Shown piece by piece: positions 1 through 63,132 of a stretch of 63,132 bases of DNA; position 1 is the stretch's first letter, and every line of letters starts with the position of its first letter. The position numbers and the translations under genes are program-made. Source of the DNA: a virus. The stretch is from positions 1 through 63,132 of IMG/VR virus record IMGVR_UViG_3300005095_000109; one strand, 5' to 3'. The notes below the pieces were generated by a model. The model made no database searches, was not told the DNA's origin, and saw only the letters and a program-made list of their open reading frames with translations.

Positions 1-91
1 CGCTCCTATATAACCATCTACCCACGCAGAACAAACACTATACAACTTGGCTATCACACCATACCACATAGCTCTCCTACAACCATCACAT
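1..91. repeat. Terminal redundancy, left copy
   Basis: Bases 1-91 are identical to 63042-63132. One gene reads in frame through the junction, so the contig is a circularised assembly of about 63,041 bp. A repeat this short is more likely a k-mer overlap than a biological packaging repeat. Confidence 0.9.
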
Positions 92-2788: not shown

Positions 2789-2865
2789 TGGTGGGCCCGG
2801 CAGGGCTTGAACCTGCGACCTGCGGATTATGAGTCCGCCGCTCTGACCTGCTGAGCTACGGGCCC
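2789..2865 (-). tRNA. tRNA with anticodon CAU (Met or lysidine-type Ile)
   Basis: The minus strand folds as a complete 77-base tRNA: acceptor GGGCCCG/CGGGCCC, D-stem GCUC/GAGC, anticodon stem GCGGA/UCCGC with loop CUCAUAA, T-stem GCAGG/CCUGC, discriminator A and an encoded CCA (2789-2791). Anticodon CAU means elongator Met or, if C34 becomes lysidine, Ile(AUA); I cannot tell which. ATA codons are frequent in this A-rich genome, which would favour Ile. It follows the Csx16-like gene by 11 bases and is probably co-transcribed with it. Confidence 0.93.
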
Positions 2866-2876
2866 AGATGGAGCCT

Positions 2877-3227
2877 CTACGGCTCCTCTCCGAGTAGTTC
2901 ATAGAATTCGCTGTCGTCGTCATCTTCTTCTGTGTTGTTCACTTCTCTGACGACGAACCCACGTAGCCCTCTGAACCGCTCCTTCAGTTCCTCTAAACTC
3001 AGTTCCCTACCGCGGTCCTCAGGCTTCAGTTCTAACTCTGGCGTCCACACCTCTTTACATCGTGCCGCTAAGTGTAGAGGCAGAACGCCTGCCACCACCT
3101 TCCCGTCAAGAACAGACGGGTCTGTGACGTGAGTAAGTAGTTCTGTCTTCTCGTCCGCCACCCCTAACTCCTTAAGAAGTTGCACCAGAGCAGGGTGGCG
3201 GGTGATAATGATTTCTACTCTCCTCAT
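2877..3227 (-). CDS. Csx16-like protein (CRISPR type III-associated family)
   Basis: This 116-residue protein begins MRRVEIIITRHPALVQLLKE. Three conserved blocks of the Csx16/VVA1548 family are visible: TRHP (9-12), LDGKVVAGVLPLHLAA (about 40-55) and RGRELSLEEL (about 72-81). The tail after residue 95 is acidic and probably disordered. Csx16 proteins sit beside type III CRISPR loci and have been linked to turnover of cyclic oligoadenylate signals. A phage copy could blunt a type III or related nucleotide-signalling defence, as the ring nuclease AcrIII-1 does; that role is inference. The start overlaps the stop of the upstream gene (ATGA), and the tRNA follows by 11 bases. The family call is by eye. 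Confidence 0.6.
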   Translation of the reverse strand: MRRVEIIITRHPALVQLLKELGVADEKTELLTHVTDPSVLDGKVVAGVLPLHLAARCKEVWTPELELKPEDRGRELSLEELKERFRGLRGFVVREVNNTEEDDDDSEFYELLGEEP

Positions 3228-3715: not shown

Positions 3716-4087
3716 TCACGTTGTCAGTTGTTCAAGGTATTCTATACTTCTTTCTTTTGCGAAATTGATATCTTTATCTGATATAGTATTTAGTATATAT
3801 TCTATATCTTTTTCTGACAGAATTCTTATTTCTACTGTTATATTGTTTTCTTTTATTTGTACGTATGTTTCTTTGATTGATGCTATTTCTGATAGTGTTT
3901 CTGCTATTATTTTTCTTGTTTTAGGTTCTTTTTGTTCTGTTTCTATGAATGGTTCGTAGTCATATACTTCTTGATTATTGTATTCATATAGATTGTATGT
4001 TTGTGTTTCTATTATTTCTATTATTTGTTCTGTTGATTTGATTGGTATTTGTTTTTCTTTTGTGTGTATTATTATTTGTACTTTCAT
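3716..4087 (-). CDS. Hypothetical A-rich-operon protein, last gene
   Basis: This 123-residue protein begins MKVQIIIHTKEKQIPIKSTE. The mRNA is A-rich, giving a protein dominated by Ile, Glu, Lys, Thr and Asn. Alternating hydrophobic N-terminal residues suggest beta strands; the C-terminus (EKDIEYILNTISDKDINFAKERSIEYLEQL) looks helical. I recognise no family. The start overlaps the stop of the preceding gene (ATGA), so it belongs to the operon of two amidoligases and two glutamine amidotransferases. It could be an accessory factor or a substrate of those enzymes; the sequence does not decide. Confidence 0.75.
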   Translation of the reverse strand: MKVQIIIHTKEKQIPIKSTEQIIEIIETQTYNLYEYNNQEVYDYEPFIETEQKEPKTRKIIAETLSEIASIKETYVQIKENNITVEIRILSEKDIEYILNTISDKDINFAKERSIEYLEQLTT

Positions 4088-4476
4088 TGCTGTATTATTT
4101 TGTTATGTATTAGTTTCAGGTATTTTATTGTTAATGCTTTTCTGTTTAGTGTAGACATATCTATTTGTACGTAGTCTTCTATTTCAATGTACTTTATTAT
4201 CATTTCTGCTTTTGTTTCTTTTGTTAGGTTTCTTAGTATTGAGTATTCTGTGAATGTTGCTATTTCTTTTACTGTTGTTGTGTTGTTTATTTTCTGTATT
4301 AGCCTTACTTTGTTTCCTGGTTTAAAGTTTTGTTTTTGCAGTATTGTTTTTGTTATTCTGTATGGTACTTCGTGTAATGGTATTACTGCGTCTGTTGTTT
4401 CTTTAATTTTGTGTGCTGCTTCTATTATTGTGTCTTCTGTTATTATGATTTCTTGTTTTAGAACTTCTTGAGCCAT
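4084..4476 (-). CDS. Hypothetical A-rich-operon protein
   Basis: This 130-residue protein starts at MAQEVLKQEIIITEDTIIEA and overlaps both neighbours (4 bases downstream, 19 bases upstream), so it is tightly coupled in the amidoligase operon. It is rich in Ile, Thr, Lys and Glu, with likely helices at the N-terminus and strands in the middle (FKPGNKVRLIQKI, VKEIATFTEY). The FKPGNKVRLI segment resembles a small beta-barrel start, but I can assign no family. No signal peptide, membrane segment or cysteine cluster is seen. Confidence 0.75.
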   Translation of the reverse strand: MAQEVLKQEIIITEDTIIEAAHKIKETTDAVIPLHEVPYRITKTILQKQNFKPGNKVRLIQKINNTTTVKEIATFTEYSILRNLTKETKAEMIIKYIEIEDYVQIDMSTLNRKALTIKYLKLIHNKIIQQ

Positions 4477-4814
4477 TCTTGTTTGATTTTCTTTAGTTCT
4501 TTGTTTAGTTTGTTTATGATTTTGATTGCTTTTTTTCCTGCTTTTTGTGCTTGTTTGAGTTCTTTGCTTAGTCTTTTGTAGTTTTCTATTGGGATGTTTT
4601 TGTAGATGTATATGAAGTGGTCTGTAGTTGGTTTAGTGAGCAGTGGTGCTTCTGTTCCTACTCTGCATCCGTTCCATTTGCTTTGTGCGTGTGTTGATAT
4701 TAGCGGTAGTAGTTCCATTGGTTGTATTGGTAGTTCTGTTTTTGCGTAGATATCTACGATTAGTTTGATATGTTTTCCGTTTTGTGTTGTTGCTGTGATT
4801 TTTGCTTTTACCAT
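4458..4814 (-). CDS. Hypothetical A-rich-operon protein with basic C-terminus
   Basis: This 118-residue protein starts MVKAKITATTQNGKHIKLIV. Likely beta strands at the N-terminus lead into a long, strongly basic helix at the C-terminus (about residues 80-118, KELKQAQKAGKKAIKIINKL and on), which could bind nucleic acid or form a coiled coil. I recognise no family. Its start overlaps the end of the 4808-5509 gene by 7 bases and its end overlaps the next gene by 19 bases. Confidence 0.75.
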   Translation of the reverse strand: MVKAKITATTQNGKHIKLIVDIYAKTELPIQPMELLPLISTHAQSKWNGCRVGTEAPLLTKPTTDHFIYIYKNIPIENYKRLSKELKQAQKAGKKAIKIINKLNKELKKIKQEWLKKF

Positions 4815-5509
4815 GGTGTGTTTATTTTGTTGTGTTCATTTATTAATTGTTGTGCTATTTTTCTTGTTAGTTTTTTGATTTTTGGTGGTATTGGTTTTTG
4901 TTTTGTTGCTTTTATGATTATTTTGTGTAGTGATGTTGTTGCTATTGAGTTGCTTTCGTTTAGTATTATTTGTTCTGGTTTGTTTTTGTTGTTTGCTACT
5001 ATAAATTTGCTTGTTGTTTTTGTTGCTTTATCTTTTATAAATGCTATATATTCTATTGCATAGTTATCTATTCGCAAGTTTGGTGTTATAGATTTTATGT
5101 TTGTTGTTTCTGTTTCTATTTCTGTGTAGTATGTTTTTTGTTTTATGTTTGTTATTCTGAGTCTTCTTGGCTTGTCTTGGTCAATTATGTCTAATATATG
5201 CATATTTCTTACTTTGTTAATTAGTTCTGGTATGTTCATTGTGTGCATTGTTTCTGTTTTGTTTTTTATGATGTATCTGTTCATGTCTGTTCTTGTTGAT
5301 GCTGCTATGTATTCGTTTTCTGTTTCTATGATTATTTCGTTGTTTATAATGTCTTTGATTTTCATTCTTGTTATTACTGGCACTATGGTTATGTATATGT
5401 TGTTTTTTCTAATTGTTTCTGTTGAGTCTGTGTTTTTTAGCGTTTTTAGTTCTTCTGTTTCTATTAGTTTGTAATCTGTGCCGTCGTCTGAAAATATTCT
5501 TAGTATCAT
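4808..5509 (-). CDS. Hypothetical A-rich-operon protein, 233 residues
   Basis: This protein starts MILRIFSDDGTDYKLIETEE and is rich in Ile, Thr, Asn and Lys. Regular strand-like segments (NNIYITIVPVIT, EIIIETENEYIAAS, RRLRITNIKQKTYYTEIET) suggest a mostly beta fold; the C-terminal third is basic (KQKPIPPKIKKLTRKIAQQ). No catalytic motif or membrane segment is visible. The start overlaps the stop of the truncated amidoligase gene (ATGA), so translation is probably coupled. It is the largest unknown of the operon and the best candidate for a partner of the amidoligases. Confidence 0.78.
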   Translation of the reverse strand: MILRIFSDDGTDYKLIETEELKTLKNTDSTETIRKNNIYITIVPVITRMKIKDIINNEIIIETENEYIAASTRTDMNRYIIKNKTETMHTMNIPELINKVRNMHILDIIDQDKPRRLRITNIKQKTYYTEIETETTNIKSITPNLRIDNYAIEYIAFIKDKATKTTSKFIVANNKNKPEQIILNESNSIATTSLHKIIIKATKQKPIPPKIKKLTRKIAQQLINEHNKINTPW

Positions 5510-6204
5510 TGTGTTTTGATTTTACTTGTGAACTTGTTTAGTCTTGCTGGTGGCAGGTTTGATTCTTCTATTTCTTTTGTGTATTCTGTTTGTTTTCCTG
5601 CAAGGACTCTATTTATTTGCTTTATTCTTTCAAATATTCCGAATGCTTTTGTTATTGGTCCGCTTATTCTGAACTCTACTGTTTTGAAGTTTTCTCTGAC
5701 TGCTATTGGCGTGTCCTTTATAAATTGCTTTGCTCGTTTAATTTTGTTTGTTTTGTTGATTCCGAGGAATTCTGCGTCTAGTGTTCTTCCCCATTTTGCG
5801 TATTCTTCTTTAATTACTTTTATGTTGTCATTAAATCTTCTTTCCAGTCTGTTTAGGTATTGTAGATACTCAATTATGTTATACATTTCCAATGCGTTTA
5901 TTGCTCTGATTGGGATATGTATATGTAGTCCGTTTGCTTCGCACAAGTGTACTTCGTTTAGTATTTTTTCAAGGTCTGTTACTATTTGTTCTGGTGTTCC
6001 TTTCAGTTTGAATTCTACGTGGTCGTATTCATCTGAGAATGTTCCGTCGTGTATTCCTTTATGGAATGCTGGTGTGTCGCTGTCTATTGAGTGTTCTGTT
6101 ATTACTCCTTGGCATGTTTGCAGTTCTGTTTTTAGTTCTTCTGCGTCGTAGTAGTCGAATAGACACTCTACTTCTACTCCTATTATGGTGTTTTTCTTTA
6201 TCAT
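5506..6204 (-). CDS. Putative amidoligase (ATP-grasp/COOH-NH2 ligase type), short paralogue
   Basis: This 232-residue protein carries the family landmarks in order: GVEVEC (E11, E13), DHVEFKLKG (about 61-69, in place of the usual EIVSP block), NGLHIHI (H94, H96) and VEFRISG (E177, R179). Enzymes of this family join a carboxylate to an amine using ATP and often work with a glutamine amidotransferase that supplies ammonia. It is shorter than the paralogue at 7442-8383, and the two share only these blocks, so the duplication is old or the genes were acquired separately. A glutamine amidotransferase lies 15 bases upstream. Substrate unknown: cell-wall peptide, phage protein or small molecule are all possible. 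Confidence 0.65.
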   Translation of the reverse strand: MIKKNTIIGVEVECLFDYYDAEELKTELQTCQGVITEHSIDSDTPAFHKGIHDGTFSDEYDHVEFKLKGTPEQIVTDLEKILNEVHLCEANGLHIHIPIRAINALEMYNIIEYLQYLNRLERRFNDNIKVIKEEYAKWGRTLDAEFLGINKTNKIKRAKQFIKDTPIAVRENFKTVEFRISGPITKAFGIFERIKQINRVLAGKQTEYTKEIEESNLPPARLNKFTSKIKTQ

Positions 6205-6219
6205 TTTTGCTTTATTTAC

Positions 6220-6825
6220 TTATTTTACTGTTAGTATTTCTTTTGCTTTTCTGACCAGTTCTATGTCTGGTCTTGATAGGAATATTTTTTCGTTTAGTTT
6301 GAACCAGTTTCCTATGAAGTGCATTTTTGTTTCCCAGATGAGTATGAATCTTGCTTTTGTTTTCTTTTCTTGAAGTTTTAAGTATTCAATTACTTGTTGT
6401 TCTGTTGCTCCGTGTTCTATTGAGTCTTTTATTACCCAAGCCAGTAGTGCTGTGTCTGATAGGTTGCTATAGATTGGGTCTTTTGTTACTGTTCCGTTTT
6501 GGAACAGTAGTTTGTCTGTTGTTCCTTTTAGTCTCTTAATTGGGTTTTCAGTTAGCGGAAATGGATGTGTGAGTTGTTTGTTTGTCTTTCCTGCGCTTGT
6601 TTTACGTAGGTGGATTACTACTTCTGTTTTTCCAAGTATTCTGTTTACGTTAAGTAGTAATCCCTCTGGTGTCATTATTCCCTTTCTGAATTTCCATTTG
6701 TTTTCTTTTCTGTATGCGAACCCTGCGCCATCTTTGTTGGTTTTCCAGTTCGCTATTATTAGGTTGTTAACTATTTGCACTTCGCTTGATGTAAGGTTTT
6801 TTCTTGTTGCTATTATCAAGCACAT
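6220..6825 (-). CDS. Class II glutamine amidotransferase-like protein, copy 2
   Basis: This 201-residue protein starts MCLIIATRK. Once Met is removed, Cys2 would be the N-terminal nucleophile of an Ntn hydrolase. Further landmarks are KDGAGFAYR, VVIHLRKTSAG (the HTRWATHG block), LLFQNGTV (the HNGII block) and SDTALLAWVI (the SDTE block). The enzyme would release ammonia from glutamine for transfer to a partner ligase. It has no synthetase domain of its own, so the neighbouring amidoligase (5506-6204) is the likely partner. In the second block Gln replaces the usual His before Asn-Gly. Copy 1 lies directly upstream. Confidence 0.7.
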   Translation of the reverse strand: MCLIIATRKNLTSSEVQIVNNLIIANWKTNKDGAGFAYRKENKWKFRKGIMTPEGLLLNVNRILGKTEVVIHLRKTSAGKTNKQLTHPFPLTENPIKRLKGTTDKLLFQNGTVTKDPIYSNLSDTALLAWVIKDSIEHGATEQQVIEYLKLQEKKTKARFILIWETKMHFIGNWFKLNEKIFLSRPDIELVRKAKEILTVK

Positions 6826-6845
6826 TGCTTCTTTGTTTTTTGAGT

Positions 6846-7430
6846 TTATAGACCTGCGCTTGTAATTATTTCATGTTCTTCGTTGTATCTGAAGTTTTCT
6901 GTTATGTATAGTTTGTGTTCTCCGTTAAAGTCTGTTACTGCGAACTTTCCTCCGTTTGTGTCGTACGCGTATTCTATTGCTATGTGTGCTGGTAGCAGAG
7001 AGATGAGACGTGCCAGTTCAGCTGTGTCTGATTCACCAGTAGTAGTGTTTATAGAGCAGCCTCCGTAGTAGCAAGAGTATGTCTTTTCTCCCATTCCGCT
7101 AATCACTCCGTTGTGGAACAGGAGTTTGTCTGTTATGCCCTCCATTATATTGTAGTGCTTCTTCTTAACCAGTTCAGTTAACTGGAATGGATGTGTCATT
7201 TGTGGTCTTACGCCGCCTGCTGTAGCAAGCCTTACGTGGACTATTATCAGTTCTTTATCTGTGTGTTTTTTCAGTTCTTCTTTCAGTTCCTTGAGGGTCA
7301 TTATTCCACGTCTGAAATACCAGCCGTCTTTGACTGGGACTGCGAGCCCTGCTCCGTCGCTGTTTTGAATCCACTGGTAGTCTATTACTTCTAATATATT
7401 CCCCGCTTTACCTATTAGAATGTTACACAT
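6846..7430 (-). CDS. Class II glutamine amidotransferase-like protein, copy 1
   Basis: This 194-residue protein starts MCNILIGKAG, with Cys2 as predicted nucleophile. Family blocks in order: NSDGAGLAV, IIVHVRLATAGGV, LLFHNGVISG (oxyanion Asn-Gly) and ESDTAELARLI. The set is more canonical than in copy 2. It probably hydrolyses glutamine and channels ammonia to the amidoligase encoded 11 bases upstream (7442-8383). Two such ligase-amidotransferase pairs in the order ligase, GATase, GATase, ligase is unusual. A proteasome-like peptidase cannot be excluded by fold alone, but the block pattern is that of glutamine amidotransferases. Confidence 0.75.
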   Translation of the reverse strand: MCNILIGKAGNILEVIDYQWIQNSDGAGLAVPVKDGWYFRRGIMTLKELKEELKKHTDKELIIVHVRLATAGGVRPQMTHPFQLTELVKKKHYNIMEGITDKLLFHNGVISGMGEKTYSCYYGGCSINTTTGESDTAELARLISLLPAHIAIEYAYDTNGGKFAVTDFNGEHKLYITENFRYNEEHEIITSAGL

Positions 7431-7441
7431 TTCTTTTAGAT

Positions 7442-8383
7442 TTAAGTGAATAATGGTATTGTTGCAATTAGGCTGTTTACTTCTTTGATGTTTTTTCTTT
7501 TGATTGTGTTTACTAATTCTGCGTATTTTTTCTGTTCTGCAAGTTTTCTGATGTGGCTCCAGTTCAGTTTTCTTATTTTGCTTGGTGAGTCAAATTGTTC
7601 TGTTATTAATTCTGTCAGGACGTCTGCGAATTGAAGTCTCGCTTTAATCTCGTATAAGTCAAGCGTTCCCTCAAATATTCTCAGTTCAACTGTCTTACCG
7701 GCAGTGCCCCTTAGGTTGTATCCGTTTACTGCACAGTTTCTGTTTCTCTGCATATAGTCTCTTAGCATGTCTATAACGTCTCCTTCTTGCATCAGTATGT
7801 GCATTGGATATTCGGTATATCCGTTGTCTTTTCTGTTTGTGAGTTTGAGCAGACCTGGTATTAATCTCATCAGCGCTAACATTACATATTCCGGGATTAT
7901 CTCATATGTTCTGTTGTTTTTTCTATACCTTCTTTGGATATGTATGTGCAATCCAGCATTTACGTTTTTTCCTGTCGTTACTTCTAAGTCGTGTTCATAT
8001 ATTATGTCAAAGACTTCTCTTAGCATATCCACCAGCGTTTCTATTCCTTTTTTATCTGCTGGCATTGGCGGTGATACTATTTCGCATCCATAGTTGTATA
8101 CGCTGCCGTCATATTTGACTGCCGGGGTGCTATGTGTTGCCAAATGTAGTCTGTTTAGTGTTTTTGTGAAGTAATCTTGTTCCATTTCGCTCTCAAACGA
8201 AATCTCTATTTCACAGCCTATCCGTTTTCTTCTTGTTAATATTCCGTTCCACTCAAGCCTCCTGTCATATCTGAACATGTCATTTGTTCTTGTAATCTCA
8301 TCTGGTCTCATGTTTCTTCTGAATGTGAAGAGCAGTTCGTATTCAATCCCTGCTCTTCTTGCCTCTCTTTCCAAAATGCTCAT
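7442..8383 (-). CDS. Putative amidoligase (ATP-grasp/COOH-NH2 ligase type), full-length
   Basis: This 313-residue protein is the first gene of the operon. Family blocks are clear: IGCEIEISFE (E58, E60), YGCEIVSPPMP (E101), NAGLHIHIQ (H146, H148) and VELRIFEGTL (E233, R235). These match the amidoligase family found in bacteria and phages next to glutamine amidotransferases and predicted to form amide or peptide bonds on unknown substrates. The start ATG at 8381-8383 follows a weak copy of the phage promoter-like motif (8417-8428). In phages such pairs have been suggested to modify cell-wall or surface peptides; here that is inference. Composition is slightly less A-rich than the distal genes. 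Confidence 0.75.
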   Translation of the reverse strand: MSILEREARRAGIEYELLFTFRRNMRPDEITRTNDMFRYDRRLEWNGILTRRKRIGCEIEISFESEMEQDYFTKTLNRLHLATHSTPAVKYDGSVYNYGCEIVSPPMPADKKGIETLVDMLREVFDIIYEHDLEVTTGKNVNAGLHIHIQRRYRKNNRTYEIIPEYVMLALMRLIPGLLKLTNRKDNGYTEYPMHILMQEGDVIDMLRDYMQRNRNCAVNGYNLRGTAGKTVELRIFEGTLDLYEIKARLQFADVLTELITEQFDSPSKIRKLNWSHIRKLAEQKKYAELVNTIKRKNIKEVNSLIATIPLFT

Positions 8384-8416
8384 TGCTCTATTATTTAAGA
8401 GTTAAGAGTTATAAAT

Positions 8417-8428
8417 GAAGACATTTAG
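8417..8428 (-). promoter_or_regulatory. Weak copy of the TTAAATGTTC motif, amidoligase operon
   Basis: The minus strand reads CTAAATGTCTTC, two mismatches from the TTAAATGTTCTT core, about 34 bases before the ATG at 8383. It is preceded by ATATCT and a GTAGAGTT element, also seen upstream of the 2056-2067 motif. Confidence 0.4.
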
Positions 8429-8541
8429 ATATAGATTTAACTCTACTATTCTACTTCTTTACTGTTTTATTCTTTTGTTTGTTGTTTTTTTTTTGTTTTG
8501 TCTCTCTGTTTGTTTCTCTTCATTTCTTTTTTTATGTATAG

Positions 8542-8576
8542 GAAGTGCGACGGTCAATATATGAAGTGTGGCGGTC
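8542..8576. repeat. Two 14-base direct repeats 21 bases apart
   Basis: GAAGTGCGACGGTC (8542-8555) and GAAGTGTGGCGGTC (8563-8576) match at 12 of 14 positions, with starts 21 bases apart, two helical turns. They lie between divergent operons, as expected of a regulator binding pair, but no regulator gene was recognised. Confidence 0.45.
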
Positions 8577-8759
8577 TGGCTGTTTTTTAGTATAAGCGTT
8601 GTGGCGTGTGCCTGCTGGCCTGTCGTTACCGTGCCATTTGCTAATGCCTTATTATTACACGTAGTTGATTGTTATGGGCGAATAAATTGCATAATTTAAT
8701 GTCATTTAGGGAACCTTTTTTAATTTAATGACGTATAATATAATGTAAATTGTTTAGCA

Positions 8760-9047
8760 ATGATGCAACCAACCTTTTTTAGGCTAACGCCAGAGCAATT
8801 CAAGATGCACTTTGGCAGTGCGAAGTGGGAATTCAAGAGGTTTTACATAGAGAATGATGTTGCTGAGTTTGAGTTCCGTGATAGCATAGGCTTATACACA
8901 CTTTTAGCCAGACCAACTCATACTGATATAATAGAACGGATGATGAAATCTGATGATTTAATTGATGGATTTGAAATAATTGAGATTAGAGAGACTGACA
9001 AGCAAGGTAACGTCATTAAGGTGCTTGAAATAGGTGATGATGCGTGA
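8760..9047 (+). CDS. Hypothetical protein, first gene of the recombination operon
   Basis: This 95-residue protein begins MMQPTFFRLTPEQFKMHFGS. The beginning looks like a mixed alpha/beta fold, and the C-terminus alternates charged and hydrophobic residues (FEIIEIRETDKQGNVIKVLE). I recognise no family and see no catalytic motif. It opens the plus-strand operon and overlaps the start of the helicase gene, so it is probably co-translated with it and may be a helicase or replication accessory. An ATGTAAATT element (8743-8751) lies just upstream. Confidence 0.7.
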   Translation: MMQPTFFRLTPEQFKMHFGSAKWEFKRFYIENDVAEFEFRDSIGLYTLLARPTHTDIIERMMKSDDLIDGFEIIEIRETDKQGNVIKVLEIGDDA

Positions 9048-10188
9048 GTTGTTAAGGTGGCAGAAGGAAATCATCTTGTCTATTGAGAACAGAATGCGAA
9101 CAGATGATATGTTTGTAGTGAACGTAGCGACTGGCGGTGGCAAGACGTGGATAGGTGGCTACTTGGCTTTACGCCATAAGCCATCAATAGTTGTGTGCCC
9201 TACTGTCGTATTAGCCCGCCAGTGGGATGCTTGGTTCAGGGAAAGAGGCATAGAGCCCGGGTTTATAGGTGACGGATGTATGGATGTAAACAGAGATGGT
9301 GTTAACATAGGTGTTATAAACAGCATAGTCAATAACATATATATAATGCCACAATTTGCTATGGGCATATACGACGAGGCACATAACTACGGCGGGACAT
9401 ATCAACGTGCGTTCAACATATCACGGACAAAAGTGTTACTAACTGCTACGCCGACGGAATGGATGAAAGGATACAAACAGATTGCAAACGTAACGCTCAA
9501 CAAACTGATAGATAACAAGATAGTTGACGACTACATTGCTACACTAATAGGCGTTGACTTAACACTATCTGAACAGAAAGAATACAATTATTACGACAGG
9601 CTTCTTCGTCAATACCTTGACGACAGCGGGATAGCAACACTACAAACAGCATTTAAGTTAATCGGTCTATCAAGCGGTAAGATGTCGCATGTGCTAAGGG
9701 ATATAGCGAAAACATATCAAAATATGATACGCATATCTGCCATGTCGGAAGGGAAAGATGAATTAATAACAGAGTTCGCAAAAGACAGCGATGAAAACGT
9801 AATAGTGTTTTGTAACTACATAGAACAGGCAAGGCGAATACACGAACGGTTACTAAGGCTGGGAATAGATAGCATATTAATAACTGGTAAAGACAGCAAG
9901 AAGCAACGCAGAGAAAAACTGAGGCGAGCCAGCAATACCAAAGCCCTTGTTACAACTAAAATACTTGACGAGGGATGGACACCAGAAGTTCCATTCAGCA
10001 TAGGGATAATAGCCAGTGCAACAGGACAGAAGAGGCAACTTATACAGCGGATAGGCAGGACGATAAGACACTACGGCAACGGGCATAGATACATAATAGA
10101 CGTTGTAGCACGTGGGACTGTTGACGAGAGGCTTGCGAGGAGACGTTGGCATTCGTTAGGGAACCGTTTGAGAACATTCATTGTTTAA
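9037..10188 (+). CDS. SF2 helicase (compact DEAH type)
   Basis: Reading from ATG 9037 gives 383 residues. Superfamily 2 motifs are clear: Walker A ATGGGKT (31-37), VVCPTVVLARQW (motif Ia), DEAH (113-116), TATPT (136-140) and QRIGRTIR near residue 345 (motif VI). The RecA-like pair with little else is typical of phage helicases of the UvsW/Rad25 kind. It probably unwinds or remodels replication or recombination intermediates, in line with the exonuclease, RecT and RuvC-like genes downstream. The open frame extends to a GTG at 9034, but the ATG at 9037 or 9040 is the better start. The start overlaps the stop of the preceding gene. Confidence 0.9.
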   Translation: MMRELLRWQKEIILSIENRMRTDDMFVVNVATGGGKTWIGGYLALRHKPSIVVCPTVVLARQWDAWFRERGIEPGFIGDGCMDVNRDGVNIGVINSIVNNIYIMPQFAMGIYDEAHNYGGTYQRAFNISRTKVLLTATPTEWMKGYKQIANVTLNKLIDNKIVDDYIATLIGVDLTLSEQKEYNYYDRLLRQYLDDSGIATLQTAFKLIGLSSGKMSHVLRDIAKTYQNMIRISAMSEGKDELITEFAKDSDENVIVFCNYIEQARRIHERLLRLGIDSILITGKDSKKQRREKLRRASNTKALVTTKILDEGWTPEVPFSIGIIASATGQKRQLIQRIGRTIRHYGNGHRYIIDVVARGTVDERLARRRWHSLGNRLRTFIV

Positions 10189-10196
10189 TGTAAAAA

Positions 10197-10745
10197 ATGG
10201 TTGCTATGGGGATAAACATTGACAAGACACTCGTTGAGTTATTTGAAATAGTTTCAAAAAGTGCAACCGATAGTATGCTATACGCACTTATCAATATGCA
10301 CAAGAAACTGAATGAAATAAAAGAACAATTTGACATAGGCACTATTGAAGACTACATAAACATAAAGAACAAGAGCGACAAACGAGAATATGAAAACGTA
10401 AACATAAAAGTCAAATCAACAGAAGGCGGGACAGAAGCATCAATAGTGCTAACCTCAGACGAAACATACACAGGCTTATTAACAGAAGTGAGAGACATAA
10501 ACGAAGAAAAGGCACTGTTTGAAATAAGATTTTCATCAATAACCCCAGACGACATAACAGAGATAGCAAGGTTCGTCGTTCAGGCAAGCCAAATAGCAGA
10601 CATTGACATACAAGAGAAAATGATTTACAACAAACAGGAACTGCTTAACAGCGTTGAGTTAGTTAACGCACTGATGAACGCAACAGGGACGCTAATCCGT
10701 ATCTACTACCATCTTGACGAAGACCACGAACTAATGTGGCCTTAA
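10197..10745 (+). CDS. Hypothetical protein, 182 residues
   Basis: The protein starts MVAMGINIDKTLVELFEIVS, 8 bases after the helicase stop. It appears helical at both ends, with a charged beta-rich middle (ENVNIKVKSTEGGTEASIVL). No family, membrane segment or metal site is seen. Its place between the helicase and the exonuclease suggests a role in DNA metabolism, for example as a single-strand-binding or accessory protein, but no OB-fold signature is obvious. Confidence 0.75.
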   Translation: MVAMGINIDKTLVELFEIVSKSATDSMLYALINMHKKLNEIKEQFDIGTIEDYINIKNKSDKREYENVNIKVKSTEGGTEASIVLTSDETYTGLLTEVRDINEEKALFEIRFSSITPDDITEIARFVVQASQIADIDIQEKMIYNKQELLNSVELVNALMNATGTLIRIYYHLDEDHELMWP

Positions 10746-10756
10746 AAACAAGAAAG

Positions 10757-11167
10757 ATGAAAGAATGGGAGCAACTGCGTGTCAGGTCAGTAATAGGCAT
10801 AATAGACATACAGGACTACGGGATAACATTGATAGTTGAGAAGTCAAAACAATTCCCCCAAGACCAAACATTCAGCACATACTCAATAAGCATACACAAG
10901 CAAGATAAGTTAAGCGGTGTGGCACAGGAACATTACGAATGGCTAAGCGAGATAATTGATGGGGAAGCACTGGACAAGAAAGAAATGATAGACGTAATCT
11001 TCTCATTCATAGACGAGACGGCACACTACGCAGAAGTGAGACCATACGTCAAGGCTATAACTAATTACAGCAGGGCAACAGGTAATTACATAACAATCCT
11101 GACAGGTAACAGGAAATTGCTTATGAAACTGTTGCTTGAACTGGAAAACCACAGAGGAACGCATTAA
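10757..11167 (+). CDS. Hypothetical protein, 136 residues
   Basis: The frame opens at GTG 10736 inside the previous gene, but the first ATG (10757, MKEWEQLRVRSVIGIIDIQD) sits 11 bases after that gene's stop and is preferred. The N-terminal half looks like beta strands (VIGIIDIQDYGITLIVEKS), the rest helical. I recognise no family. It precedes the YqaJ-type exonuclease by 12 bases in the same operon. Confidence 0.72.
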   Translation: MKEWEQLRVRSVIGIIDIQDYGITLIVEKSKQFPQDQTFSTYSISIHKQDKLSGVAQEHYEWLSEIIDGEALDKKEMIDVIFSFIDETAHYAEVRPYVKAITNYSRATGNYITILTGNRKLLMKLLLELENHRGTH

Positions 11168-11179
11168 AATCACTGGGAG

Positions 11180-12214
11180 ATGAGAATAAGTAGCACTGAA
11201 TTACCAATAATAGTCGGGCTTAGCAAGTTTGCTACGCCCCTTGACCTCTGGCTGGTAAAGAAAGGATTAAAGGAACGACAGCCCGATAACGAGTATATGC
11301 GGTTAGGCAGACGGCTTGAATACGGTATATTCGCAGAAGCAAAAGAAGAAATACAGAAAAAGAAAATCCTACCTATTGAACCAACTGATAAGATAGTCTA
11401 TGCCCCGGGAATTCTATTCACGAAAGATATATTTTCTTGCCATATAGATGCGGCAGTGGTAAAGCCAAACGATGAAATCAAATATCTAATAGAGATTAAA
11501 AGCACCTCAATGCCTATACAGGCATTTGAGAAATATGCTCTTGCCCAATATGAATGCCAAGTAATGCAACAGATATACATAACAGGAGCCCAACAAGCCG
11601 TTATAGTAGTGGCACCCGACGGAGGGAAAGGAGAACTGAAATACTACTACGTATTCTTTGATGATGAGAAATGGTCTAAATGGGAAGCTGAAGCCCGCAA
11701 GTTCTACGAATCACTAAAAGAAGACAATCCGCCTGAATGGATAATAGAAAGGTCAAAGGAACAGAACAAGGAACTTTTTGAGGCGAATAATGTGTTTAGT
11801 ATAATGGAAGTTGATGACGACGTTGCCGCTTGGATAGTGTCGGCAGCCGTTAAACTGGAAGAACTGAAAGCACAGAAGAAGGAATTAGACGCACAGATTA
11901 AGGCAATAGAAGGCGTCCTTTCAAATGCCATAAAAGGCAACGGAGAAATCAAATGGAACGACGAAGTGATTGTGAAGGCTACAACATACGAAAGCGAAAC
12001 ATTTGACAAAGAGAAACTCAAAAAAGAACATCCAGAGATTTACGAGAAATACGTCGGGAAAACAACTAAAAGCAGATTAACAGTAGCAAAAGGCAAAAAA
12101 CTACAAAGGCTGGCAAGCACCTTCCAAAGCCTACCAGAAATCAAAAACGCAGAATCACTAACTTCACTAATAGCAAAACAAGACGAAGATGGCAGAGAAA
12201 CTACCAATCAATGA
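11180..12214 (+). CDS. YqaJ/lambda-exonuclease-type recombination nuclease
   Basis: This 344-residue protein begins MRISSTELPIIVGLSKFATP. The PD-(D/E)XK exonuclease pattern is visible: GLSKFATPLDLWLVKKG and LGRRLEYG at the start, CHIDAAV with the catalytic Asp, LIEIKSTSM with the E-x-K pair, then YECQVMQQIYITG. Enzymes of this type resect one strand of double-stranded DNA ends so that a RecT annealase can load. The RecT gene follows and overlaps by 26 bases, the usual pairing. The C-terminal 120 residues are a charged helical extension beyond the nuclease core. Confidence 0.85.
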   Translation: MRISSTELPIIVGLSKFATPLDLWLVKKGLKERQPDNEYMRLGRRLEYGIFAEAKEEIQKKKILPIEPTDKIVYAPGILFTKDIFSCHIDAAVVKPNDEIKYLIEIKSTSMPIQAFEKYALAQYECQVMQQIYITGAQQAVIVVAPDGGKGELKYYYVFFDDEKWSKWEAEARKFYESLKEDNPPEWIIERSKEQNKELFEANNVFSIMEVDDDVAAWIVSAAVKLEELKAQKKELDAQIKAIEGVLSNAIKGNGEIKWNDEVIVKATTYESETFDKEKLKKEHPEIYEKYVGKTTKSRLTVAKGKKLQRLASTFQSLPEIKNAESLTSLIAKQDEDGRETTNQ

Positions 12215-39753: not shown

Positions 39754-42700
39754 TTAGCGAATTCTATATGAAACAGACCCAACTACTTTTGTTCTTTTCC
39801 TTTTATTTGCCTGTTCATATTTCCTCATTAGAGATAGTGCTTGGTTAGGCACTATTGGCGTTACCGTTAGCGAGAACGCTTTAAGGTAGTCTCGTGTCAA
39901 CTGCATAGGTGTTGACTCCCCTTTGGCAAAGTCAATTGTTCTATATGTAGAGTTTGCTATAGCCTGCATAAAGTTGAAGCCTATTGGTAGCCTTATGCCA
40001 TATGTTGGCAGGTCAAGGATTTTATTAACTGTTGCTGGCAGATAGTAAGATGCTGGGTATGCTACTAATCCAAGTGAGTTGTTTATAAATGAAGCGGCTG
40101 CTGTCTTTGCTATACGTTCCTGTTCCTTTTCTTTTGTCTTTCTTTTCTCGCCAGTAAGCAGTTCTTTGAGGAAATCAATAGCAGCAAGGAAAAGCGATGT
40201 TAGGATTATAGCAAGCCCGTAGTATGACAAACGCTTTGTATTCCTATACTTAAGGTAATCTCTTAAACCGAGCACGAAGTTTGAGAAGATAGGCCAAGAT
40301 GGCGTTGTAAACATTGTAAATAGCCTAATCCACGAGTAATAAATTTCTGGTCTGAAGGTTGTCGTGTACATTGGTTGTGTGCTCCTGACTGCGTTATAAG
40401 TGTTTTCAGATACGTATTTAGCCCATTCTCTCGTGCCTTTCTTTAACCCCATTTTTTGTGCCTTCTCTGCATATCTATTCCACGTTTCTATAATCATTTC
40501 TCTATCTGCATATGCAATCATTGACATTGTTGATTCCATACTTGTTGCATCAATAATTTTCTGTGCTACTTTTTTGCCGAACATTTTTGTTAACAATTTT
40601 CCTGCTTCAATAGAGACAGATGTTTTAGTCCCGAACAAGTCTTCAACAGTGTAGTATGACAATAGTGGTGTTGATATAAGCCTTGCGGCAATAAGTCCAG
40701 TAGTATCATACTCAATTATTTCCCTTATTCTTGGGTCGTTCAACTCTCTCATTATAGACTCTGGCTTTGACTTGATTGCTCTTGCCTGTTCAACTGGTGC
40801 CCCTTTGATTATCCTTCCGACAAGAGTTATTGCCCTACCTATTGATTTAAGGTCCCCAGTAGCCGCTCCGAGGGTTACAAGACCAGCCGCCTGCTTAATA
40901 GCAGAGAATATGTTCATAAAGAATATAAATGCCACTTCTATTTTCATTTGTCTATCAAGGAGGCGTTGCCACTTTGCCTCATTTAATTGAGGGGCGTAAT
41001 ACCTATTTACGAAACTCTTTATCTTCTGGACAAGGAACCTATACATTTCGCTTCCGTATCTATCGCCGTAGGAAGTTACTGTTTTTGCAATCTTCTTATA
41101 GTTCATCACTGGGAATGTATATCCATAAACTGTTGAGGCAAGCCTTTGTGAAAGTGTCAGGACTGTATAGGCGTCAGTGATTGTTACAGCCTCGTTTTTA
41201 CGTTTATGCATATCAATGTATGGGTTATCAAATATGTTGGCAACTCCCTTTATCTGGACTGAAAGAGGGGTGCCAATGCCAGATACTCTTGGGACAAACA
41301 GACCATCTGCTTTATTCTCATAGCCGAAAGCCTTTTTAACTATTGAGTTAGTTTCGTTTTTCAGTATTCTAAATGCCTGTTCAAAAGCCTGTGCCTCTTC
41401 TTTGAAATGTGCATTGACAATACTATTAATTGCTTTTTCAAATGACTTGAAAGCACTTTCATCTCCGAACCATATGCTTCTTTTCTTAATGTCATCTCTA
41501 TCAGAACCATAGATAATACCATGTTCTTTAATATCTTCTCTTGCCTTGTTATCTTTTAGATACAGGTATACTGTTATAATCTCTGCCGGAGTTAACTCAT
41601 GGACGTCTTCAAACTCTTCAATTTCTTCCTGCCCTTTATTCCAAACTTTTTTAACATTTGTAAATTTCACTTTCATCTTAGGCACGTCCTTTCTGCTAAC
41701 TGTTACATACTCGCTTGACCTAATATGCTGTGAACCATCTGCCAACTTTTTGTTCTTCAGAGTTGGTGTTATAAGTTTCTGCACCCGCATAGTCAGTTTA
41801 CTTGCCATCATGTCGCCATGTTCAAAAGCGAGATAAAGACCTTTATACAGTGCGTTATCTGTCCCGCCAGCAATCAAGTTAAAGAATGCGTGTGGTTGCA
41901 GGAATGAAGACAACTTAAACGTCTTAAACATTTTAACAACCAATGGGTCTGAGGCAGCAGTTGATATTTGCGTTACCATCTCGTTATCAAGATAGTCATT
42001 ATATGTAGATGTGATAGCCCTTCCATCAGCTGCTTGGAATGTGTTTTTGGAAGACAAAACTCTGTTTATCAAAGCCAGAGCTCTTACTGCAACTATAACA
42101 TCGCTTAACGCCAAGTCCCTAAGGACAATTTCATTGCCATTCTGCAATTTTAGACTTGCGACTGGGCTCTTGCCGTCATATTCTATTTCAAGTGTTCCAT
42201 TAAGTATTTGCTGTATTGTTTCATCAGAAAGCCTGCCATCTGGGTTATCACCAAAGAGCAGATTAAAAACACTCATTGGATTAGCATCGTCATATGCGGC
42301 TCCTTGTAAGTTAGTTAGACCAGATAATGAGTTATCAAGGAAGTTGCCAAAGCCTTTTAGCCCAAGTATAGCCTTACTAATCTGATGTTCTTTATCATCG
42401 CCTATTATATCGTCAAGTTGTCTAAATATCTGTAACATTGCTTGTTTACGTGCTGGGATGTCAAGGGACATAATACCTGAATCCACTTCATTTGAAATGA
42501 AAAATCCGAACGATAGATAATCAAGTATTTCGTCTGCTGCTGTTATTATGTCATCTGCGCTTTTAATTTCAGTGTAATGCTGTTCCACCCCCTCTGTATC
42601 AGCCACTATGCCGGGGTTAATCTCATCAAAATGCTGCTCAAACAGGTTGTCTGGTTGGTGCTGTGCTTGCTGCTTTATTTCTTGCTGTGCTGGCTGCGTT

Positions 42701-45700
42701 TGTAGTTGTGGTTGCTTAATGCCCTGCTTTTCAAGTATTTGCCTTGCTTCACCAGTCGGCGTTAACCTGCGCAGGTCTGCTTCATAAAATAGTTTAGCAA
42801 GTCTCTCATAACCTATAGAACTTTTTATCAGCCACTTAAGCCTTGTCCAGAACTTGTATATAACCTTTAGCACACCCTTCAACTCATTAATCTTGCGTTC
42901 ATCTTGTAGCCTTCTGACGTAAGAGACAGCAAGCATCTCAGCAAGCCGTTCCTCTCCGTATTTGTCTATTAGCCTTTTAACGAGTGGGTCTTCCCTGAAC
43001 ATATCTATATAGACGTGTGCGAATTCGTGAGGGGCGGTTGTTATTCTCCCATCAACCAACGACCACGCAACTAAATAACTAAGTTCTCTTTTTTGCATAT
43101 ATCCAAGTCTCTTGCCTAACTTTTCATCATATATTCTAATTTCAACAAATGGGTATTTAGCCATTAAGTCTTTAACTATTGCCTTGTATAGTTCTTCATT
43201 TTCTATAATTCTAACCATACTTTCACGTTCAATCATATAATCGGCATCTTCTATTTGGCTTTTGATTTCTGCTTCATTTATTGATACTACTTCAATGCTC
43301 TCTTCACTTAGTTTAACCAGTCGTGGCACAACACCTTTCTTGGCAAGATTAATGATTGATTCTGTTATCTTATCTATATCGCCTTGTGCACCAAGGACAT
43401 CTTTCAAAATCTTCTTAATCTGTTCCATATCCTTTTTAGCAACTGCTTCTTTTAATGTGTTGTTTATAGTTTCAATATCCTGTGTTTCGCTTGCTCTCTT
43501 GAGCAACTTTATAGTTGTTTTCCGCCCGCTTGATAACGCATTTGCTAATGCTTCTGCTATTGATGCCCTCTTGCTTGTCGGGATATAGAAGCCGAATACA
43601 TCCTTATCATTTACTATTCCTATTTTATCAAACTTGGTATTAAGAATTAAGTTATCATCAATAGTATTTGACGCCTGCAATTTCTGAGACAAAGAGATTG
43701 CAGACTTAATGGATTCAAGCAGGTTAGGGTTGCTAACTGCTATTCTACTTAATACATTAATAGTCCTTGCAGAAAGGTCATTTATAACCTTATCTATATC
43801 AAGCCCATTTAAGTTAACTTCAGTTACTGATATATTAATTCCAGGTGGTATGTATATCTTAGCTTGTGCTTTACCTCCAATTTCATTTATCCTGACAGCT
43901 ACATCAACTGTTTGTAGGCTATTTATTAAATCTTTTATCTTATCGGCAACTTCTCTGTTAACATTTAGCGATTGTAGATGTGTTATTAGCATACTGCTAA
44001 AGTCAACTCCGCTGACTATAACTTCTTGTTTTGGTATGCCGTCAAAGTATGGTGTTATTTTAACGAGACTATTATCTGCTGGCTCAGCAAGTCCAGGCAT
44101 ATATGCAAGTTCATGGTATCGTGTTGTTATTAGTTTTTGTTTTGATTGTCTATCTTCAACTACCTTATCATATTTGATCTTCAGTATTACATAGTTATTA
44201 GGTGTCTGAGGCGGTATTGCAGATAAAGCGTCTGCCAGGTCAGGAGGCAGATTAGTTAATACCTTGCTTAGCTCCTGTTGCGTTGGCTTTTCAACAGTCA
44301 ATTTCCTATACTCATATGCATTGTGCTTTCTAACCCTTATGTTAAACTCATTTAATCCTGCAAGCAGGATTATGTTCTCCCTTGTGTTATATGGATGTAA
44401 TGGGTTTATGAGCATATACTTACTGCCTGCAATATCAAACAATATAAACCTTTCTTTCTCTAAATCATACTTAACCATTCCGTGCACTACGCCCTCAGGG
44501 CGTGATTTCCTTAATATGTTTGTTGCAAGAGATTCTCTTAAAGCCTGTAATTTGTCTTCCTTGCTTATACCTGCTATTGATTCTGTTATTTGCATTAGTT
44601 CCTGCTCTGGTAATAATGACATAACTGGCGATGCGGCAAACACGCCGTTCTTAGCTGTCATAACATATGCTATTGGCTTCAGGTATATAGATGATAGGTC
44701 GGGAGATGCGTTTATAAGTTTCTTTATTGCGAGCCATTCGTGAGGTGATACATTAGTAAATGTCAAGTCAACACCATTCTTTTTGAATGGCGACTTTATT
44801 CTTTTCTTTTCAAGCCATCCTATTATGTTCTTCACCTGTGAAGGCCCGATAAAATGCTCACCATTAATTGAGTATGCTGATAATAGCCGTGCTATGTGGA
44901 ATGGCATCCTGCCGTTTAGTTTAGCGTTGTATAGGTCTATATTCATTTTCATCCACAGGCGTTCGCTTGGTGCCTCGCCATACATAGCCTTATCAACAAG
45001 GTATGCGCTGTATAATTCAAGTGCAGGACGTATCTCTGTTTCGTATCCTTTGAATATGCTGTATTCTCTGAATGGGAGGAACACAGTAGATAGCGGTTCG
45101 TAGATTTTTGAGTATATGTATCCAGCAAAGTCTGCGTATTCAGATTGTATTGCGAATTCTGTTTTTTCTACGCCTGGATAAGCCTTATGTTCATCAAGTG
45201 CTATCCTTACACGAATCATCTCCTCAATAGATGATGGTATTGACCTGTATATGCCGAGGATTGGGGCAACATACGATATTGCTTCCTGCCCAGCTGCCAG
45301 ATAGTCCATTTTTTCAAGGCGATATTCAAGGGACATATCTCCATAGAATGCTTCTACTGCCTGCGCGTATAAGTGTGCTGGCATTGAGAAGTAATCATAT
45401 CCATTTTTAACTGCATATTTTTCAACAAAGTCATACATATTTATTATTTCAGATATTACTTCAGATATTTCGTTTCCGTGCAGGATAGCCCCTGCTATGT
45501 AGTTAAGTGATGCTGAGTTAATGAGCATTCTGGATATTGCGAAGTTGTTATTGTTGTCGTCCAGTGCGGCCTGCACGAATATATCAAGGCTTTTGACTAC
45601 GCCTTCTTTCTGCAACAGTTCCTGTATGTTTATCGTCTTCCTGCGTCGCACTATTATCTCTTCTTCTTCTGTTTCCTGTGTTGTGTATCCTGTATATGAC

Positions 45701-48700
45701 ATTTTATCGACAACGCTTATTAACTTTCTCAGGACGACAAGCGTGCTTATAGCATCGTTAGCAGAGCGAGTTCGTGCTGAAATCTTTAGCCTTGCAGACC
45801 TATTTTCAAGAGACAGTTCTTTATCTAAATCAGCTTTTCCGCTTTTGCTTAATGCACTTAATAACCTATCGTATATTTCTTTGTAATAGCCTTCATCGTC
45901 AATTATCTTCTTAACTGTTTCCGGTGTGAACCTCACAACTTCTTGCAGGTCGTTTGGAAGTGTTATTTTGTATTTCTTAGCAAGCATAGCCAGTTCAACT
46001 ACATCAGCAAGATTTGACATCCCAGATGGGTCAAGTTTATAGTCTCTAATTGCTTCATCAACAGAGTTATATACTTGCTCTGCTGTTTTGACCAATTTGG
46101 ATAGTGCTTTTGCTATTTTCAGTGATTGCATTGACCACCCCCATTCAGGCGTGTTTACATTTTTTATCTCTTTTTGTATCTTTAGCCCTTTTAGTTTTAG
46201 ATATTGTGTTATTAACTCATTAATATCTTTTTCTGTTTTAACATTATCAATGTTATTCATTATATAGTCTATCATATCATTGACAAGAGAAACATAGTCT
46301 CCTTCATGAGTTTTACTTGCTATTATTTTAAAAAATGTTTGACCTGTTATTTCTTTCATTCCCCTTAAGTCCTCATATATGAAAGGTGCTATTGCTTTTA
46401 TGCCTTTTGACACTATGTAGTCCATTATAATTTTCCTCATACCTCCATCTTCAGGGAACACAAATAGGGCATCTCCATCGTAGTCGGCATCAGCCCTGAC
46501 CCTGTCCCTTACTCCACGGATAATGATATTTGCGTGCAGGCGTCTCCTTGCTTTATTAGAGTAGTATTCTCCAGTATGCCCTATTACCTTTGAGAATGCT
46601 ATATTTGGTGCCTGAGTAGGGACACGGATAGTCATTATTTTTTCGCCCCGCTTAGCTACCATAGGAGACACGATAGCCTTACCATCAATAAGCAATTCAC
46701 CAGTTGAAGGAGACCCCATATCTGGGACCTCATATAAGTGTGCTCCGGGCAGTTCTGCACGTGCCGCCCGCTTATGGAACATCTTAGCAAGCGTTGGGAT
46801 TATGATGGAAGCATATTCTATGTTATGCATAACTGCTTCTGTCATTGCCTTCGCCTCGTCTATGTCTTCTTCCGCTTTGCTTTTTATTGCTTTATCTATT
46901 TTGTCCTGAAGCAGTTTGAACATTTTAGACAGTGATTCAGAAACATTTGTTTTCCAAGCGGCATCGGCACCTTGTATAGCACCAACTATCGCTTCCTTCA
47001 TAGTTCGCAGAAAACCTATATCAGAGTTGTCCCAGTTGTTGAGCGTCGCCTCAATCAGTTCCTTATATGCATTCCACAGTTCTTTCACCCTTTCTGGGTC
47101 CTGAGCCACAGATTTAATTGTTGTATAAGCCATTAGCGGGAACAACGATGAGGACTGTTCGTCAACTGGTTTGTTGGTATTAATGACTATGCCGAATGTT
47201 GATGAGTCAACATATGGCTCTTCCTCCTTTATGTATTCTGCTATATCTGTTGCTATATCCTTAACTGCTTTCTTTACTTTGAGTTTTGCTCTTTTTGCTA
47301 CTTGTTGACCATTCACCTCTTCTGTTTCTATTGCTTCAATATCAAATATGTCAAAGACTTGTATCGGACCGCCCCCCTTTGTTAAATGCCCTTTCATAGC
47401 AGAACTTGCTATAAACACAACTGCTGTGTTATCATCTATATGCCCCCTGCGTTTAAGTTCATCAAGTATTGCTTGCAGTCGTGATTCAACATATGACCTC
47501 CCACCTTCTATTTTAATGCCGCCCATTTTGCCATACAGAGGAGCCAGCGCATACCTGCCGTCTTTCTTTTTGTATGGTGCTAACCCATAGAGCATTGGCT
47601 TGATAAATGGGCTTGTATCATCAATACTTGCAGTATCGTTAATCAAGTCATACATTGCGTCGTTGTAGAAGCAGAAGCCGTCAAGCAGTTCTGTTTCTGC
47701 TACCTCATTACCTATGCGTAGTTTTATCTTCGGATCTTTGAATGGTATGATAAGCAATTTCTTCCCGGGAGCCAATCGTCTAATGGTTGGCGTCTTTGCA
47801 CCCTTAGTTATTTTCTGTTTCTTGCCGTGGGAGAGCATATCAGTAAACACAAGGTCTCCTGATGTAAGGACATCATATACGAAAGATGCCATAACTATAT
47901 CAGTTGCTATTTTCTTAAATGATTGCTTACCTATCTTGAACACATTAGCCTTTTTATCATATTGTATGTCATATTTGTTTTTCAGAAAACTTATCTGGCT
48001 CTGTGTAACGTCGTCAGGTGCCTTCACTTCTATGTATTCAATATCTGCTTCCTTCAGGAGTGATTCATATTCTTTTACAAGTTCATCCCTATACTTAGCA
48101 AGTCTTCCCTTAATGTCTTTATTATCAAGACCAACAGACTCTGCGATAAAATCCAAGTCGCTGTATTTATCAAAAACTTTAGCATCTTGATAAGTAGGCA
48201 TTTTAACAGCGTAAACTTCCCTGCTATCGCCGTGTGGCGGGCTAATGAAATAGAAGTATTTGCCCGCACTTTCAATTATTCCGTTTATATGCATCTTCAA
48301 CTGTGCTATTAGCTTATTCTTGTATGGCGCAGTAGCGAACTGTGTTGCCTTTTCGCCTATATATACGCTTGTGAACAAGCTAACCATATCACCGCCTTCT
48401 TGTTCTATCAATCTGTATATAAGTGTGTTCTTATACAACTCAGTTAGTTTGTTGATGTAGTCTTGTGCAGAGTTGAATTTTGCTATGCTTTGTATGAAGT
48501 ATTTCGCATTTGAGAATATTCGGATAACATTATTGACAAAACTTAGTGCATTGCCCTTTTCAGACCCCACATTGAAAGTCGTCTTGTTGTAGTAACCTTC
48601 TTTGATTAATTCCCCTATTATCTTCTTGTAGTAGTATGATACGCTTCTTATTTCCCTTACTTGTTTTTTCTTATCGTCTTTGTAAATGTTAAAGACAAGC

Positions 48701-62879: not shown

Positions 62880-63132
62880 CTACCCATACATCCCAAACAA
62901 ACCATTAAACTCACCTACATACCACTCAGGTAACCACAACAACTCACCACTATACACAACACTACCCAAATCTCTCTCCACAAAACTTACACCTATATCA
63001 ACACCATCTAAACTACCAACAACCACCAACTTAGACTTCAACGCTCCTATATAACCATCTACCCACGCAGAACAAACACTATACAACTTGGCTATCACAC
63101 CATACCACATAGCTCTCCTACAACCATCACAT
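62880..63132 (-). CDS. Hypothetical protein spanning the contig junction (3' part)
   Basis: This is the C-terminal end of the 240-residue protein that starts at base 561. The frame from 63132 to the TAG at 62880 is continuous with that at 1-561. The last residues are FNGLFGMYG. No domain is recognised. Its 3' end faces the gene-free repeat region at 62200-62879. Confidence 0.8.
   Translation of the reverse strand, partial: CDGCRRAMWYGVIAKLYSVCSAWVDGYIGALKSKLVVVGSLDGVDIGVSFVERDLGSVVYSGELLWLPEWYVGEFNGLFGMYG
63042..63132. repeat. Terminal redundancy, right copy
   Basis: This is the exact copy of bases 1-91 and lies inside the coding frame of the gene that ends at 62880. It closes the genome into a circle and should be trimmed once before any gene counting. 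Confidence 0.9.

Follow-up and report, generated by a model that had tools for sequence, protein, structure and literature searches.

Genome and operon organization

Within the window, that is, the whole 63,132-nt stretch of viral DNA analysed here, four enzyme ORFs head a tightly packed minus-strand operon in the order ligA, gatA, gatB and ligB, with gaps of 11, 20 and 15 bases between them (Table 1). All four were found on the minus strand where a preliminary description of this DNA had placed them, and ligase and class II glutamine amidotransferase (GATase) genes adjoin on one strand, the arrangement by which an amidoligase–GATase module is recognized. The "mirrored order" of that description corresponds to ligase–GATase–GATase–ligase, but all of the genes lie on the same strand and the phrase means nothing more; likewise, its "two pairs" comprise two ligases and two GATases but not equal copies, the GATases being probable paralogues and ligB a divergent protein. 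The "four coupled small unknown proteins" that follow ligB do overlap, by 4–19 bases, but the first of them, at 233 aa, is not small.

When the operon stretch was shuffled 500 times in dinucleotide blocks, the longest run free of stop codons measured 88 codons in the median and never exceeded 152; odd base composition is not the source of the long ORFs. The three smallest downstream ORFs have lengths that individually fall within or near this shuffled range and were accepted because they are tiled and share their start context with other phage genes. For the 233-aa ORF, no convincing family match was obtained and a single-sequence scan of viral contigs found no relatives, and phmmer showed the small downstream proteins to be unrelated to one another or to other window ORFs. 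Most genes lack a Shine-Dalgarno sequence; the motif TAAA(A/T)(A/T) recurs approximately 9–14 bases 5' of the start codon, and CA often stands immediately 5' of the ATG in genes of this phage. Such a TAAA-rich context with few Shine-Dalgarno sequences would fit the Bacteroidota hosts of crAss-like phages. From the gene layout, the intergenic region upstream of ligA is presumed to be the operon promoter region; a consensus scan for promoter and terminator gave matches at chance level.

Table 1. Positions of the operon, its flanking features and the terminal repeat in the window, and records of the three crAss-like relatives that carry the module
Feature	Position or record	Strand	Basis or remark
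ligA, 313-aa amidoligase (Amidoligase_2)	7442–8383	-	PF12224, profile, AF2 + Foldseek
gatA, 194-aa class II glutamine amidotransferase	6846–7430	-	Profile, weak Pfam, conserved Cys2
gatB, 201-aa class II glutamine amidotransferase, gatA paralogue (probable)	6220–6825	-	Profile, identity, tree
ligB, 232-aa divergent short amidoligase (putative)	5506–6204	-	Window-free profile, invariant residues
233-aa protein	4808–5509	-	Start overlaps ligB stop by 4 bases
118-aa protein	4458–4814	-	Overlaps 233-aa ORF by 7 bases
130-aa protein	4084–4476	-	Overlaps 118-aa ORF by 19 bases
123-aa protein	3716–4087	-	Overlaps 130-aa ORF by 4 bases; final tiled ORF
Intergenic region	8384–8759		Between operon (minus) and early helicase/YqaJ/RecT genes (plus)
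Terminal repeat	1–91	+	Exact, same as 63042–63132
crAss-like relative G002	IMGVR_UViG_3300009130_000028		Ligase then GATase
crAss-like relative G006	IMGVR_UViG_3300008267_000388		Ligase then GATase
crAss-like relative G037	IMGVR_UViG_3300028129_000052		Ligase then GATase

The two ends of the record repeat the same 91 bp exactly, and an ORF runs uninterrupted through their joint over 245 codons; this makes the genome circular (or its assembly so) and, with about 63,041 bp, apparently complete. The major capsid protein matches the Crassvirus capsid family in Pfam (PF23898, E 2.8e-58) and the terminase is related to crAss phage terminases, so that the virus is, judged by both proteins, a crAss-like phage of bacteria.

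Several other features of the genome deserve mention. Strand asymmetry at 3716–8383 mounts along the operon, with coding-strand A rising from about 0.4 in ligA and gatA to 0.57 and third-position A from 0.43–0.48 to 0.73, and at 61–63 kb the bias is reversed, the coding strand being T/G-rich. The pattern resembles a mutational bias tied to replication or exposure, with a switch near the left end. The region 600–2865 is GC-rich, gene-poor and full of hairpin-like repeats, unlike the remaining genome, and includes a single tRNA gene, for tRNA-Met (2789–2865, minus strand). A 4727-aa ORF (39754–53937, minus strand) contains DADYDGDALFVF, a sequence similar to the catalytic motif found in virion RNA polymerases of crAss phages; the polymerase-like motif apparently lies within one giant multidomain ORF. 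A Csx16 family protein is encoded at 2877–3227 on the minus strand (PF09652, E 1.5e-14, under the NCBIfam cut-off). Since cA4 ring nuclease activity is confirmed for Csx16, which occurred in only 2 of 28,114 phage genomes (PMC12409355), the window protein may help the virus to counter type III CRISPR defence.

Identification of the four enzymes

Ligase and GATase profiles were built from proteins of other phages, with no window sequence included. Among 275 window ORFs, the four operon enzymes were the sole significant matches (the best other ORF reached 0.12 with the ligase profile), and larger profiles again retrieved solely these four. Their scores were 82 bits for ligA, 21 (21.2) for ligB, 66 for gatA and 76 for gatB, as against 8.3 for the best of 1000 composition-preserving shuffles per protein. 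The motifs listed in the preliminary description were recovered as G-x-E-x-E, D-G-S/T, E, G-L-H-I-H and T-V-E-x-R in the ligases and as Met-Cys, H-x-R, H-P-F, (H/Q)-N-G and S-D-T in the GATases, and none of the four proteins has lost a catalytic position. The proposed membership of known families was thus upheld by the phage-built profiles for every protein and by Pfam for ligA, which passes PF12224 (E 5.7e-10, 39.9 bits, gathering cut-off 22), but the GATases stay below the Pfam cut-offs and ligB has no Pfam match.

The ligA protein matches the window-free ligase profile at 6e-25. Its AF2 model (pLDDT 86, pTM 0.88) adopts a glutamine synthetase (GS)-like fold and, in a Foldseek search of the PDB, retrieved YbdK (1.6e-6), glutamine synthetase, PafA and Dop with a probability of 1.00, YbdK being the nearest solved fold. 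YbdK is a carboxylate-amine ligase and PafA is the Pup ligase. On the strength of this model, ligA is predicted to be a GS-fold carboxylate-amine ligase. It is devoid of the N-terminal CxxC zinc-ribbon regions typical of most relatives.

The second ligase is far more divergent. It matches the window-free ligase profile at 2e-6, with an hhalign probability of 96.9%, and shows no PF12224 match at E 1; as solely the family-specific profile links it to PF12224, we call it amidoligase-like, divergent. Every residue that is invariant across 27 other ligases (G9, E11, E13, G92, H94, E177 and R179) is retained in ligB, as are most of the nearly invariant ones, although D-G-S has T for S and the F-x-G-T that follows T-x-E-x-R is missing. 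Structure prediction, which had succeeded for ligA, gave a weak model (pLDDT 62) that found no usable Foldseek match in the PDB and a weak structural match (probability 0.57) to a viral "Amidoligase enzyme"; the GS-like fold of ligB is putative and rests on homology. BLAST detected no link between ligA and ligB, and the tree does not resolve the origin of ligB because its branch length is over 5. Single-sequence scans of viral contigs revealed no near relatives of either ligase. A PF14395-type ligase was also considered for ligB and ruled out, as there was no match.

Both gatA and gatB are predicted class II GATases. They match the window-free GATase profile at 8e-20 and 6e-23, respectively; against Pfam GATase_4/GATase_6 they score 17.5–17.8 bits (gatA) and 12.5 bits (gatB), below the cut-offs of 23–27, as do the phage GATase relatives that were scanned. 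Cys2, H-x-R, N-G and S-D-T are found in both proteins (the conserved residues of gatA are Cys2, R67, N107-G108 and D135), with Q in place of H ahead of N-G in gatB, and an alignment of the family matches GlmS and PurF structures in their glutaminase domains. The two proteins share 37% identity (BLAST E 1e-21) and are sisters in the tree with support of 81/90, which is moderate given the long branches; they are probably in-lineage duplicates.

Motifs of the CxxC type occur at least twice in 89 of 95 other ligases and at least once in 62 of 89 GATases and are absent from the window proteins. To judge from these comparisons, all four window enzymes are stripped down relative to their relatives.

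Distribution of the module

A terminase profile identified 43 further records. An amidoligase is encoded in three of them, and the same three carry a GATase, one of each; the other 40 have neither, which is weak evidence of absence since many of the records are fragments. If the records are taken as independent, the chance of such a coincidence of ligase and GATase is approximately 7e-6. The three environmental crAss-like relatives, whose terminases are related to that of the window (about 39–41% identical), resemble the window in having an Amidoligase_2 gene followed by a class II GATase gene, but have a single ligase and a single GATase instead of two of each, a ligase with N-terminal CxxC regions and a GATase of about 280–310 aa. 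Upstream of the pair they carry genes for a gamma-glutamyl cyclotransferase (GGCT, PF06094), a DnaA-like protein (by eye) and a DUF932/DUF3871-like protein, and downstream of it a DnaB-like helicase gene (by eye). No window ORF matched the GGCT profile, and no ATP-grasp partner was seen among the window proteins scanned with Pfam. The module was absent from 10 crAss-like phage records checked, mostly of gut phages, and a literature search for an amidoligase in a crAss-like phage gave nothing.

A survey of viral sequences yielded 566 ligase relatives, and the neighbourhoods of the best 80 loci were examined. In 73 of these 80 there is exactly one ligase and one GATase; two ligases occur in four, and two of both solely in the jumbo-phage contig described below. 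Most of the ligase–GATase pairs at these best 80 of 566 loci have no GGCT within 6 kb, GGCT thus being an optional partner. Fusions of a class II GATase with GGCT were observed in loci L023 (4001–5218) and L025 (3001–3897), with amidoligase genes close by. The compact block of two ligases and two GATases is therefore rare among viral loci, a known module in a new arrangement, and no near-identical operon was found in the viral contigs scanned with single sequences.

Proposed reaction and alternatives

GS-fold ligases activate carboxylates, and class II GATases split glutamine to liberate ammonia. Because of this family knowledge and the strict co-occurrence of ligase and GATase, we interpret the operon as an expanded, compact phage amidoligase–GATase module for glutamine-fed, ATP-dependent amidation, a reading to which we give about an even chance. 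Each GATase would hydrolyse glutamine at its N-terminal cysteine to produce ammonia, and each GS-fold ligase would activate a carboxylate at the expense of ATP, an acyl phosphate being the probable intermediate. The activated carboxylate would then be joined to ammonia or another amine; a small molecule or peptide formed in the course of infection would thereby gain an amide. gatB would have arisen by duplication of gatA, ligB would be a stripped, divergent second ligase, and the four proteins would probably work either in two ligase–GATase couples, each with its own substrate, or in one hetero-complex; ammonia transfer, ATP use and subunit pairing are what we infer here. Amidation is favoured by the fold match of ligA, the match of the GATases to GlmS and PurF, the intact catalytic residues and the co-occurrence of the two families. 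Against it stand the motif gap and poor model of ligB, the Q for H in gatB, and the GGCT neighbours and fusions, which hint at gamma-glutamyl chemistry.

Gamma-glutamyl chemistry is the main rival because of the GGCT linkage and the GATase–GGCT fusions in two phages. The ligase would couple an amine to glutamate or to some other acid (compare YbdK and the gamma-glutamyl ligases), the GATase-fold protein would hydrolyse or transfer the gamma-glutamyl group, and GGCT would remove the tag in the relatives, its place being taken here by the second GATase. The closest solved fold to ligA belongs to just such a carboxylate-amine ligase, GGCT is encoded a few genes from the pair in the three crAss-like relatives, and the apparently complete window genome has an extra GATase but no detectable GGCT. 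However, GGCT is missing from the vicinity of most phage pairs, and its replacement by gatB is conjecture, as gatB retains the ordinary GATase residues; we consider this scheme possible but doubtful.

It is unlikely, in our judgement, that ligA–gatA is the sole working enzyme, with gatB and ligB as accessory subunits, specialized or degenerate, that act as its regulators or scaffold. The short length and great divergence of ligB, with part of the last ligase motif missing, and the Q ahead of N-G in gatB would agree with such a role, but ligB keeps all of the residues invariant in 27 other ligases and gatB retains Cys2, R, N-G and D. Still less probable is a scheme close to the two-step pathway of the preliminary description, in which a single peptide or metabolite made by virus or host would receive two distinct amide bonds from the two couples in turn, and at least one of the downstream proteins would serve as carrier or substrate; subunit specialization or one hetero-complex fits equally well. 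The nucleobase-linked modification suggested there found no backing: no nucleotide-modification gene was seen among the early genes scanned with Pfam (ten other genome proteins were scanned, the early ones being helicase, YqaJ exonuclease, RecT and RuvC-like (by eye)). Finally, an auxiliary nitrogen-metabolism cassette that aids host amino-acid or glutathione metabolism, an idea put forward for Phage-ZRK32, is very improbable: this chronic phage, which encodes amidoligase, GATase, glutathione synthase and GGCT, is reported to improve the growth of its host on nitrate or ammonium when added (PMC10945688), but in the available text the effect was seen with the whole phage and not gene by gene, and enzymes that use up glutamine spend nitrogen rather than assimilate it.

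With respect to the biological role of the amidation proposed above, Iyer et al. (2009) reportedly put forward a cell-wall idea for phiEco32, as cited in a later paper (PMC10580990). Cell-wall change against superinfection and secondary metabolites have been proposed for the module (PMC10580990), and the literature, as far as its text was available, contained no biochemistry of the module, its product or its role. The module is widespread in phages, and a compact set of two single-domain ligases and two single-domain GATases, free of zinc-ribbon extensions, would be convenient for biochemistry. This operon also offers a means to ask whether paralogous couples split functions, and it places the module in an environmental crAss-like lineage.

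Comparison with known systems

Ligase–GATase pairs, adjacent or clustered, are already known in the cultivated phages Marvin, MEP401/402, LUZ24-like phages and tf (PMC10580990, PMC3890496, PMC3517423). Together with a GATase within 6 kb of the ligase in 78 of the best 80 of 566 viral loci, they support the phage precedent cited in the preliminary description. Mycobacteriophage Marvin (gp105–gp106) and the OM43 phages MEP401 and MEP402 have a neighbouring ligase and GATase but, unlike the window, only a single pair. The cassettes of the LUZ24/tf/UFV-P2 and phiEco32 types consist of COOH-NH2_lig, Amidoligase_2, GATase, ATP-grasp and AIG2/GGCT genes (PMC3890496, PMC6209634). They share with the window an Amidoligase_2, a class II GATase and the presence of more than one ligase in an early cluster, but their second ligase belongs to PF14395, a third is of the ATP-grasp type, and there is one GATase; the window has neither a PF14395 match nor a detectable GGCT.

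The 214-kb jumbo-phage contig L136 (IMGVR_UViG_3300000553_000004) likewise groups a pair of GATases with a pair of Amidoligase_2-like ligases, one of them only 230 aa long, in a single cluster. Its short ligase shows marginal similarity to ligB. Unlike those of the window, the L136 genes are spread over about 6.6 kb (4955–11528) and are accompanied by a COOH-NH2 ligase and an ATP-grasp protein (both by eye), in the series short amidoligase, Amidoligase_2, GATase, COOH-NH2 ligase-like, second GATase and ATP-grasp-like. The amide-bond cluster of L136 is thus richer than that of the window.
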